In this document: positions 50,309 to 54,333 of the stretch, one piece after another | Numbering within the stretch: the first letter of the stretch is position 1 | How the letters are laid out: each line of letters opens with the position of its first letter | Source of the DNA: Treponema sp. | GTDB taxonomy: Bacteria; Spirochaetota; Spirochaetia; Treponematales; Breznakiellaceae | Assembly: GCA_031256445.1 (NCBI GenBank) | Contig: JAIRQN010000106.1 | Location: 31,897 to 95,896 of the forward strand | Reading direction: 5' to 3' | DNA length: 64,000 bases | The notes under the pieces: model-generated | Seen by the model: the letters and a program-made list of their open reading frames with translations, nothing else | Told to the model about the DNA's origin: nothing | Databases searched by the model: none | Translations under genes and position numbers: made by a program

Positions 50309-50353
50309 AAGGCAAAAATAAGGCGATAAGCAAAAGGAGAGTTGAAAGTTAAA

Positions 50354-51094
50354 ATGCAAGCAATTCCCAATATTTATGAGAGCGCGTTAAAACCTGTCAC
50401 AAAAATGAAGGCACGGGCTGTCTCGCTTGATTATGCTTATTCTGATAATGCCTGCGAAATCGACACAGGAATTCGGGAGACAATTAAAGGAGTACGCCTT
50501 TCAATACTTGCTATGGGTATGGGATTGGCTAAAATCAAGAAAAAAGGGCTTTATACAGACCTTGATTGCAAGAGCATGGCAGCTTATATTCAAAAACTGT
50601 GTGATGAAACCAAAATGGACAGAAGCAGCATTTTTAACTGGCTTTACATCGGAGAAGCGTATATAAAATACCGCAATGATCTTGTAAAAATAGGGTTCAG
50701 CGACGATGACGGACCTACTAAACTCCCCTACCTTGAACGCGCTCTTGAAACAAACCGTAAACAGGAAGTTTTCAAAAACATAAAAGATATGTCTTTAAGG
50801 GAATTCATCAATTTTTCCAAAGGCGAATCAGAAGAAGAAGATGAAGAAAAAAACAGTAAAAAAGTGACTATACGCGATAATGAAGTATATATTGGCGGTA
50901 AACAGGCAATACATTTAAGCGAAAACCTTGATTCACGAACCTATAATTATTTTAAAAAAATTATTCTTATTGCCGGAAAAGCAATGGAAGAAAATGAAGT
51001 AGTCCTGCCTGTCCGGCTTTACGATATGGACGAGTTGAAACGGTTTGAAAGAGCGGCCAATAAAATAAAGAAAGAAATGAGGGAAGAAACATGA
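50354..51094 (+). CDS. Unknown helical protein, downstream of hemerythrin
   Basis: I do not recognise this protein. ATG 50354 is taken as start because AAAGGAGA (50333-50340) lies 13 bases before it; TTG 50342 would abut the ribosome site. It is 246 residues, soluble and mostly helical. The section TKMDRSSIFNWLYIGEAYIKY looks like a helix-turn-helix (about 95-115, reminiscent of DUF3102/ParB-like DNA-binding proteins), followed by an acidic linker (about 160-170) and a C-terminal alpha/beta part. The stop codon lies inside the first arm of a perfect palindrome (51089-51120). Confidence 0.6.
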   Translation: MQAIPNIYESALKPVTKMKARAVSLDYAYSDNACEIDTGIRETIKGVRLSILAMGMGLAKIKKKGLYTDLDCKSMAAYIQKLCDETKMDRSSIFNWLYIGEAYIKYRNDLVKIGFSDDDGPTKLPYLERALETNRKQEVFKNIKDMSLREFINFSKGESEEEDEEKNSKKVTIRDNEVYIGGKQAIHLSENLDSRTYNYFKKIILIAGKAMEENEVVLPVRLYDMDELKRFERAANKIKKEMREET

Positions 51095-51120
51095 TACTAT
51101 ACACTTGTATAGTATCATGT
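51089..51120. repeat. Perfect palindrome, left end of the accessory cassette
   Basis: ACATGATACTATACA, a CT loop and TGTATAGTATCATGT give 15-base perfect arms. The core ATACTATAC..GTATAGT recurs at 52116-52135 on the right side of the cassette. The stop of the unknown gene is within it. There is no T-run, so an intrinsic terminator is unlikely. Confidence 0.85.
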
Positions 51121-51131
51121 TATGTGCACTG

Positions 51132-51168
51132 GACTTGTGAGATAACCAACAGGGTTATCTCACAAGTC
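51132..51168. repeat. Palindrome of the GACTTGTGAGA hairpin family, copy 1
   Basis: GACTTGTGAGATAACC (51132-51147), loop AACAG and GGTTATCTCACAAGTC (51153-51168) form a perfect 16-base stem. The stem start GGACTTGTGAGA is shared with the hairpins at 52066-52116 and 52262-52301. Confidence 0.88.
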
Positions 51169-51193
51169 TATGTAATCCGTTCTGGCTCTATCT

Positions 51194-51936
51194 TCAATCC
51201 ACTACATTACCCTTTGGTATCAATCCCTTTTGGATTATATTGTCAACAAAACCACGAAGTTGTTCATAATCTTCCATCTGTTGTAACAAATTGTACCGTC
51301 CCGCATGATTCGGGTATGGTTTGAATTAACTTTGTGATAATTTCCTTCATCGCGTTTTCGTCCACGGGAATCCCAATTTGGGCACATAATGCACTGTATT
51401 CCGCCTGGTTTGTTGCCGTTTCCGTATCCGTCATATACGTTGGTTAATGTATGTACCCTTTTTAAATGCCTGCATCCGTTGGTTAAATAAATTTGCCTCG
51501 TTTGCGTCCCCAAATTGCCCCAAAATCGCGTTGTTTATTTCATCGTTATAATAGGTATAAGCATGCAGAACGCCATTATCAAAATCAGAACGGCTAGTAA
51601 GTGTACTTTCTATACTCCTTTGGTTGGTATAAATAATATTATCAAATTCTGTTCTGCCATTTTTATATTGGTTTTGCAAGACCTTTGCCTGGCTAACCAA
51701 CCCCGGTCTAAATAATTGTCTAATTGACTTACGACATGGGCTTGGGTGGTACAATTTTTGTTAAAAATCACGTCGTTAACCGTGGCAAAATCACGCAGGT
51801 ACAAATACGGGTCCACGGGTTCGGGCTCGGCAATAGGGATTGGTTCATTGGTTGTGCCGTTTTTACAGGCCGCGAGCCCTGCACACATTGCGGCAACAAT
51901 TGCGGTTGTAAGGAATACAGTCAGTAATTTTTTCAT
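51194..51936 (-). pseudogene. Frameshifted lipoprotein gene
   Basis: A good AAGGAG ribosome site precedes ATG 51936 and a lipoprotein signal with LAAC lipobox (lipidated Cys24). The sequence then reads coherently only by changing frame three times: near 51700-51706 (a GGGG run, -1), near 51425-51445 (-1) and near 51265-51275 (+1), ending at TGA 51196-51194. The stitched product is about 245 residues, with plausible segments LVSQAKVLQNQYKNGRTEFD, QAEYSALCAQIGIPVDENAM and RGFVDNIIQKGLIPKG. The long coherent stretches between shifts argue for a recently inactivated gene (or assembly errors at homopolymers). I recognise no family. It is the only cargo of the palindrome-bounded cassette. Confidence 0.72.
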
Positions 51937-51985
51937 AAAAAACTCCTTTAAAATTGTCTAATCGCTTAGACGTTTTATATACTGG

Positions 51986-52017
51986 AGTTGTTCGATAACT
52001 TCAGTTATTGAACAACT
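51986..52017. repeat. Palindrome inside the cassette
   Basis: AGTTGTTCGATAACT, loop TC and AGTTATTGAACAACT form 15-base arms with one G-T wobble. It lies 50 bases upstream of the lipoprotein pseudogene start, in its promoter region. Next to it are a self-complementary TATAAAAATGCATTTTTGTA (52022-52041) and a small AGGCT/AGCCT hairpin (52042-52053). Confidence 0.8.
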
Positions 52018-52065
52018 TCCCTATAAAAATGCATTTTTGTAAGGCTTTAGCCTGAAAAAATGCAG

Positions 52066-52116
52066 AACTTGTGAGACAACTGATCGAACCGAAGGTTCGC
52101 AGTTGTCGAACAAGTC
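52066..52116. repeat. Multi-stem palindrome of the GACTTGTGAGA family, copy 2
   Basis: Stems nest as ACTTGT/ACAAGT, GACAACT/AGTTGTC and CGAACC/GGTTCG with short bulges. The left side carries ACTTGTGAGACAACT, almost the arm of the hairpin at 52262-52301; the right side carries GTTGTCGAACAAGTCC. Confidence 0.8.
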
Positions 52117-52135
52117 CACTATACAAAGGTATAGT
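52116..52135. repeat. ACTATAC hairpin, right side of the cassette
   Basis: ACTATAC, loop AAAG and GTATAGT repeat the core of the left-end palindrome at 51089-51120. Confidence 0.75.
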
Positions 52136-52153
52136 ATATAAACATGTAATTTT

Positions 52154-52261: not shown

Positions 52262-52301
52262 GGACTTGTGAGACAACTCAGGTTAGTTGTCTCACAAGTC
52301 C
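52262..52301. repeat. Palindrome of the GACTTGTGAGA family, copy 3
   Basis: GGACTTGTGAGACAACT (52262-52278), loop CAGGTT and AGTTGTCTCACAAGTCC (52285-52301) give a perfect 17-base stem, the cleanest member of the family in this window. Confidence 0.9.
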
Positions 52302-52527
52302 GGCATCAGCCGCCATTTATGCGAGTTAAAAGCAAGTATTAGCTGATACTATTGCAAGAGCCCGGACAGTCTCCGTACAGTTTCTTAACGCATGGGGATT
52401 GCTGAATAGCGCGGAGAAAACGCTGCTTTTCTGTTTTTGTTAATATTGGAGCCCATAATCAGTTCGGACTTGTTCGTGGTGAATCTCTTCAAAGAAATTC
52501 TACGAACAGGACGTGAAATCGTGTAAA
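52302..52527. other. Gene-free stretch downstream of aspS
   Basis: I see no gene here. An imperfect hairpin joins GGACTTGTTCGTGG (52466-52479) with the complement in CTACGAACAGGAC (52500-52512), a diverged relative of the GACTTGT family. GTGTAAATTACAC (52522-52534) is a small palindrome over the aspS stop. Confidence 0.5.
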
Positions 52528-54333
52528 TTACACTCCTTTCTTTTTTACCGTTATCCCCAATTCGTCAAGCTGCTTCTGGTCAACCTCCGAGGGGCAGTCG
52601 TCCATCGGGCTTACGGCGAAGGAATTTTTCGGGAAGGCGATAACATCCTTTAAAGACGACAGCCCTGCCATTATCATCACAAGGCGGTCAAGGCCCGGCG
52701 CGATGCCTCCGTGGGGAGGCGCTCCGTATTTGAAAGCCTCAGTTAAAAAGCCGAATTTCTTTTCCGCTTCGCCGGGATCAATGCCGGCTATTTTAAAGAC
52801 ACGATTCTGCATTGCGGAATCATGGATACGAATGGAGCCTGACGCCAGTTCATAGCCGTTTAACACAAGATCGTATAAATCGCCCTTTACGGAACCGGGA
52901 TCACTCTCCATTGTTTCATGGTATTTTTCCTGCGGCCATGTAAATAAATGATGAGCCGCTTCCCATTTTTGCCCGTCCTCGTTGAACTCAAACATGGGAA
53001 AATCAATTATCCAGGCGAATTCAAATTTTTTGGGATCGCATAACCCAAGATCGCGTCCCAGTTTTGTTCTTACCGCTCCAAGCGCTGTGTTGGCTATTTT
53101 CCTGTCAGCGTCCGCGATAATAAGAACAAGGTCTCCTTTTTCAGCGCCAAGCCCGTCTATTATCTGCGCGGCATTGCCTGTAAAAAACTTCGCCGCGCCT
53201 CCCTCAAAAGACAACTGCCCGTTATTCGCCGCGCTCTCCGTATTGTTAACCGCTTTCATCCATGCCATGCCTTTGGCTTTGTAAATTTTCGCGTGAGATT
53301 CGAGATCTTCTATCTGTTTGCGCGAATAATCCGCCCTGCCCTTCACTACAAGCGCTTTGACAGTGCCGCCGGCGGATATCGCGTCCTTAAATGCCTGGAA
53401 ACTCCCTGCCTGCGCAAACTGAGAAAAATCCTTAAGCCGCATATCAAAACGGAGGTCGGGCTTGTCGCTCCCGTAGAATTCCATCGCATCTTCCCATGTA
53501 AGACGGCGGAATTCTTGAGGCAATTTTACATTTAATACCTTGTCAAAAACATGTCCCATAAGCCCTTCGGTTATGGATAAAATATCGTCTCTTCCCGCGA
53601 ATGACATCTCAATGTCAATCTGGGTAAACTCAGGCTGCCTGTCTCCCCGCGAATCTTCGTCTCTGTAGCAGCGGGCTATCTGAAAATATTTGTCAAAACC
53701 GCTTACCATCAGTATCTGCTTGTAAAGCTGCGGCGACTGCGGCAGCGCGTAAAATTTACCCGGATACAATCTGGAAGGGACAAGGAAATCGCGCGCTCCT
53801 TCGGGAGTTGATTTTATAAAAGTGGGCGTTTCAATTTCATAAAAGCCGTTAGCTGTCATCCATTCGCGGACGGCGAACGCTGTCCGGCTGCGCATTTTAA
53901 TGCTGTTCTGCATCGCGCCGGATCGAAGGTCAAGGTAGCGGTACTTAAGGCGCAGATCCTCATTTGCCTTGCTTTCTTCGTCGATCTGGAAAGGCAGAAC
54001 TTCGCATTTATTAAGTATAACAATTTTATAAGCGGCAATTTCAATCTCTCCTGTGTCCATAGACAGGTTTATCATATCGTCAGGACGGAGGCAGACTTTT
54101 CCCTCTACGGCGATGCAGTATTCATTGCGCAGTTCATCGCAGACCGCCGCAAGCAGCGCGTCATTTTCAGTATTTACAGTTACCTGGGTAACGCCGTAAC
54201 GGTCCCTCAGATTGATAAAAAAAATTCCGCCGTGGTTGCGTTTTCTGTGAACCCATCCGTTTAAAATCACATTCCGTCCCGCGTCAGCTTTCCGAAGCGT
54301 CCCGCAGTCGGCAGTTCTTTTCATGCTTTCCAT
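52528..54333 (-). CDS. aspS: Aspartyl-tRNA synthetase (bacterial type)
   Basis: AspS charges tRNA-Asp. The N-terminal OB anticodon-binding domain (about 15-105), the class II core with ETPTFIKSTPEGARDFLVP and FYALPQSPQLYKQ, the bacterial GAD insertion (about 290-420), and motif 3 APPHGGIAPGLDR are all present in 601 residues. The GAD insertion marks it as the bacterial rather than the archaeal form. A TATATT -10 box (54346-54341) ends 7 bases before the ATG with no Shine-Dalgarno, so it may also be leaderless; the -35 is weak. Confidence 0.97.
   Translation of the reverse strand: MESMKRTADCGTLRKADAGRNVILNGWVHRKRNHGGIFFINLRDRYGVTQVTVNTENDALLAAVCDELRNEYCIAVEGKVCLRPDDMINLSMDTGEIEIAAYKIVILNKCEVLPFQIDEESKANEDLRLKYRYLDLRSGAMQNSIKMRSRTAFAVREWMTANGFYEIETPTFIKSTPEGARDFLVPSRLYPGKFYALPQSPQLYKQILMVSGFDKYFQIARCYRDEDSRGDRQPEFTQIDIEMSFAGRDDILSITEGLMGHVFDKVLNVKLPQEFRRLTWEDAMEFYGSDKPDLRFDMRLKDFSQFAQAGSFQAFKDAISAGGTVKALVVKGRADYSRKQIEDLESHAKIYKAKGMAWMKAVNNTESAANNGQLSFEGGAAKFFTGNAAQIIDGLGAEKGDLVLIIADADRKIANTALGAVRTKLGRDLGLCDPKKFEFAWIIDFPMFEFNEDGQKWEAAHHLFTWPQEKYHETMESDPGSVKGDLYDLVLNGYELASGSIRIHDSAMQNRVFKIAGIDPGEAEKKFGFLTEAFKYGAPPHGGIAPGLDRLVMIMAGLSSLKDVIAFPKNSFAVSPMDDCPSEVDQKQLDELGITVKKKGV

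Follow-up and report, generated by a model that had tools for sequence, protein, structure and literature searches.

Among described systems, the closest to the element reported here are the IS5-family insertion sequences (IS) and the MITEs BrickBuilt, MITE293 and MITEPgRS of Porphyromonas gingivalis, which are likewise non-coding and intergenic, have terminal inverted repeats in common with IS5-family IS, duplicate a short target and apparently depend on a helper in trans (PMC4596501). Unlike them, the Treponema element has three hairpins as its building blocks, occurs in forms shortened to 34-53 bp and lacks a helper in its own assembly. BOX and RUP of Streptococcus pneumoniae are also short, dispersed, modular and rich in stem-loops, a likeness of general architecture (PMC3049150). 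Their host and transposase family are unrelated to those considered here. RUP, too, is presumably moved by the transposase of an IS. The solo extragenic palindromes and composites of REP/BIME with RAYT look similar as well (PMC2817692, PMC3733652); unlike these, the Treponema genome is without a Y1 transposase, and the MITE has target duplications of the DDE type.

A parallel of another kind concerns regulation. LexA/SOS boxes are palindromic operators that immediately precede umuD-umuC, dinB-type, uvrB and repair radical-SAM genes, and a dyad with similar placement is found in Treponema. The Leptospira SOS box, a known spirochaete box, differs from the putative Treponema motif CTATACANNTGTATAG.

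Organisation of the locus

The window (the whole 64,000-nucleotide stretch of Treponema sp. DNA that was analysed) contains an interval that the original prediction described as a mobile cassette of 1.06 kb (51089-52147), with paired hairpins as ends and a dead lipoprotein gene inside. The mirrored order of two hairpin types at the ends of this interval is real, with an outer and an inner hairpin on the left (51088-51121 and 51131-51169) and an inner and an outer one on the right (52065-52117 and 52118-52135); the GGACTTGTGAGAYAAC hairpin motif occurs eight times in the window, where 0.43 occurrences would be expected by chance. The right inner hairpin, though counted as an end of the cassette, forms the final third of an element that has three hairpins and begins at 51984, and the right outer hairpin is short in its present form because this element, a MITE, sits in its arm. 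The left inner hairpin (51131-51169, plus strand) is a solo hairpin of the C type without target duplication, whose nearest relative lies at G000:C41:23747 (G000 being the genome of the window).

The lipoprotein gene indeed carries three frameshifts, as had been noticed; it is a pseudogene on the minus strand (51197-51936) that starts at 51936 and passes through frames 1, 0, 2 and 0. It was not found elsewhere in its own genome and had one marginal match in 60 genomes, so nothing indicates that the gene travels. Its decay would be later than the MITE insertion or independent of it; loss of the gene through that insertion is possible. The gene to the left (50342-51094, plus strand) is intact and encodes a protein of 250 aa with no Pfam or NCBIfam match. 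Its relatives in the genus align up to residue 247, and it is therefore not truncated.

The MITE and its family

The complete MITE copy in the window spans 134 bp (51984-52117, plus strand) in A-B-C orientation, is bounded by the IS5-type terminal inverted repeats GGAGTTGTTCGATAACT and AGTTGTCGAACAAGTCC, and is flanked by the target-site duplication (TSD) ACT at 51981-51983 on the left and at 52118-52120 on the right. Its three hairpins follow one another on the plus strand: hairpin A (51985-52019), hairpin B (52031-52063), a variable module that is missing from a subfamily of 97-98 bp, and hairpin C (52065-52117), which carries the extra inner stem CGAACCGAAGGTTCG. The terminal inverted repeats GAGTTGTTCGATAACT and GACTTGTTCGACAACT are identical at 14 of 16 positions. 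Members of the family are non-coding and range from 34 to 146 bp, the forms of 34-53 bp being roughly two terminal repeats placed back to back with little else. The solo C hairpins are best explained as shortened relatives of the 134-bp MITE.

When the whole genome (2.79 Mb in 107 contigs; assembly 97.7% complete) was searched at the DNA level with the right end or the window copy, 47 aligned pieces were returned, and about 55 places with these hairpins were counted by hand from the DNA search and pattern matches. The copies are extragenic, occur in both orientations and in unrelated gene contexts, and include solo palindromes and composites. The MITE is also present in several genomes of the same genus. 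When a public genome collection was searched for an exact 24-mer from hairpin A, 34 stretches contained it, with titles that are all Treponema, Spirochaetia or Spirochaetaceae, and the isolate codes of these records presumably denote termite-gut genomes.

Target duplications were assessed in 28 complete copies from the same genome, a set cleaned by hand with hairpins internal to larger elements left out. Identical 3-bp flanks of the form ANT (once AAA) were present in 23 of them, the other five being without a perfect TSD; with shuffled right flanks, the mean number of identical pairs was 9.1 and the maximum 19 in 100,000 trials (p<1e-5). Rare target triplets agree on both flanks as well (ACT/ACT twice, AGT/AGT and AAA/AAA). 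The copies constitute a new MITE family of a kind already known; a literature search found no published description of this hairpin MITE. At one locus of the same genome (L068, G000:C63:28995-32661), MITE copies or remnants lie between tandem lipoprotein paralogues.

An internal empty site

Removal of the MITE together with one ACT turns the flanks into TTTATATACTATAC-AAAG-GTATAGTATATAAA, a palindrome with a perfect 14-bp stem, whose uninterrupted sequence at this site is TTTATATACTATACAAAGGTATAGTATATAAA. In its present, MITE-split form this SOS-box-like operator extends over 51974-52142, with the 18-bp core ACTATACAAAGGTATAGT intact at 52118-52135. Since joining the flanks restores a perfect stem, a palindrome already existed upstream of the lipoprotein gene when the 134-bp MITE inserted in it at ACT, an event that duplicated 3 bp of the target. 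At 28 other MITE insertion sites tested the stems did not exceed 6 bp, so a palindrome is not a general property of the MITE target. A preference of the MITE for palindromic targets was likewise rejected, the mean stem being 4.8 against 3.9 in controls and the window site an outlier.

The mirrored hairpin order follows from insertion of the MITE in the right operator. The element would have landed there with its C end outward, and the chance placement of a solo C hairpin by the left operator would complete the mirror. In the relatives examined, the gene to the left of the hairpin does not neighbour aspS, which makes comparison with an orthologous empty site impossible; a scan of genome contigs with the hemerythrin-linked gene returned no relative.

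The outer palindromes

The left outer palindrome, AACATGATACTATACACTTGTATAGTATCATGTT (51088-51121), is 34 bp long with perfect arms of 16+16 bp, overlaps the stop codon of the gene at 50342-51094 and is an exact match to an SOS-box-like dyad. Near-exact copies of the outer palindrome number only two in the genome, both in this region. The outer palindromes are not mobile ends; they form no repeat family in the genome and match a probably regulatory dyad with the consensus CTATACANNTGTATAG.

With up to two mismatches allowed, the 22-bp dyad gave 26 matches in 40 genomes of the genus, compared with 5 in a reversed control. Reading 20 of these sites showed that, in more than half, a umuD, DUF72-dinB, TIGR03916 or TIGR03915 repair gene begins no more than about 40 bp away. 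Across the genus the dyad stands just upstream of umuD-umuC, DUF72-dinB and a repair radical-SAM gene, and in the genome of the window weaker matches directly precede uvrB and occur close to where a TIGR03916 gene begins (loci L183, L186-L192, L196-L198; L123, L202). Judged from sequence and placement, CTATACANNTGTATAG is probably the LexA/SOS box of the genus.

Before the MITE insertion the right operator lay about 55 bp, as counted by eye, from the lipoprotein start codon. The lipoprotein gene would formerly have been controlled by the right palindrome, acting as an SOS operator of the LexA type, and the left palindrome may be a second site of the same type. The latter does not precede any intact gene and is perhaps the leftover of a lost one.

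Candidate mobilising transposase

The MITE was most likely moved by an IS5-type element in trans. An IS5-family DDE transposase acting on the same terminal repeats would accomplish this by cut-and-paste. No transposase related to the MITE was found in its own 97.7% complete assembly with PF01797, PF01609 and a transposase from another genome of the genus (G024) as queries, and the helper may have been lost from this genome or be absent from the assembly.

Genome G024 carries a 200-residue fragment of an IS5-family transposase (NF033581 transpos_IS5_4, PF01609), which ends against GTTGTCGAACAAGTC, followed by T[ATT]; the fragment scores 99 bits against NF033581, whose cut-off of 140 is set for the full-length protein. 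Several contigs of G024 start or stop in a related element with its outer end against ANT. In a further genome of the genus (G009), an 892-bp element has GACTTGTTCGACAAC at both ends, where 15 of 15 bases agree with the MITE's C end; the 892-bp element is frameshifted and lies between unmatched flanks (AAT/ATT). The target of the MITE family is a 3-bp ANT, which presumably fits the ISL2 group, and this may be the group closest to the element within the IS5 family. The IS beside a C hairpin at G024:C65:1-1060 (L107) was rejected as a partner and looks like an unrelated IS adjoining a MITE remnant. The DDE transposase gene by this remnant is a different one, possibly inserted in hairpin B.

Interpretation of the locus

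We read the region as a layered neighbourhood rather than a cassette, an overall explanation to which we give a probability of about 0.88. The competing view, that 51089-52147 is one non-autonomous cassette with paired-hairpin ends and the lipoprotein gene as cargo, can point to two homologous outer palindromes flanking the gene, to a C hairpin beside each of them, to a lipoprotein gene that is almost without relatives and to a surrounding gene order that is not conserved. It fails at the right end, where the inner hairpin is part of a 134-bp element that has ends and a TSD of its own and sits inside an outer palindrome resembling an SOS operator, and where the internal empty site concerns the MITE only. 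The interval itself is single-copy in the genome and no TSD was seen around it; we hold such a cassette to be very improbable. The non-autonomous hairpin unit that had been predicted does exist, as the element at 51984-52117 and not as the 1.06-kb interval. Hairpins scattered without pairing had been named as an outcome that would speak against the cassette, and the inner hairpins are indeed distributed genome-wide, solo or as A-B-C, by unrelated genes; the outer palindrome shows no such dispersal.

Two other readings concern the hairpins as such. Their many extragenic copies, as solo palindromes and composites, would suit REP/BIME-like repeats moved by a Y1 (RAYT/IS200-type) transposase, but no such enzyme was found in the genome with PF01797, and the inverted termini are those of an IS5-family DDE element. 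The 3-bp TSDs contradict this reading too, as Y1 transposition is not known to leave a target duplication, and we consider it extremely improbable. Retention of the hairpins for a role in RNA, as terminators, mRNA stabilisers or attenuators, with dispersal only secondary, is also unlikely: the window MITE has a strong predicted folding (-61.7 kcal/mol), and the extra inner stems seen in the family preserve the hairpin shape, whereas transposition is evident from the TSDs and terminal repeats, no Rfam family was matched and the copies stand in both orientations by unrelated genes. An attC/integron reading was rejected, the hairpin ends differing, by eye, from RYYYAAC/GTTRRRY.

The layered neighbourhood illustrates that a palindromic operator invaded by a MITE can look like a mobile cassette with paired hairpins, and that the empty site can be read within one genome. 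From the analysis come a defined MITE family, for which there is a candidate helper IS, and a putative SOS box for this spirochaete group. A more far-reaching joint proposal, which we put forward tentatively and at slightly less than even odds, is that an IS5-type transposase moves the 34-53-bp hairpins and that CTATACANNTGTATAG is an undescribed LexA box, the lipoprotein gene having once been under SOS control and its promoter region split by the MITE. If true, movement of such short hairpins by an IS5-type transposase would be a DDE-based way of generating solo palindromes that resemble REP.

Sequences between the hairpins and aspS

A third C-type hairpin (52262-52301, plus strand) lies beyond the limits of the proposed cassette. 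It is followed by CGGCAT, possibly a remnant of module B. The aspartyl-tRNA synthetase gene aspS (52528-54333, minus strand) belongs to no unit. Beside it, at 52450-52512, is a further dispersed-looking repeat, TTCGGACTTGTTCGTGGTGAATCTCTTC, which also occurs at another locus (L030), where it flanks a MITE copy on both sides.
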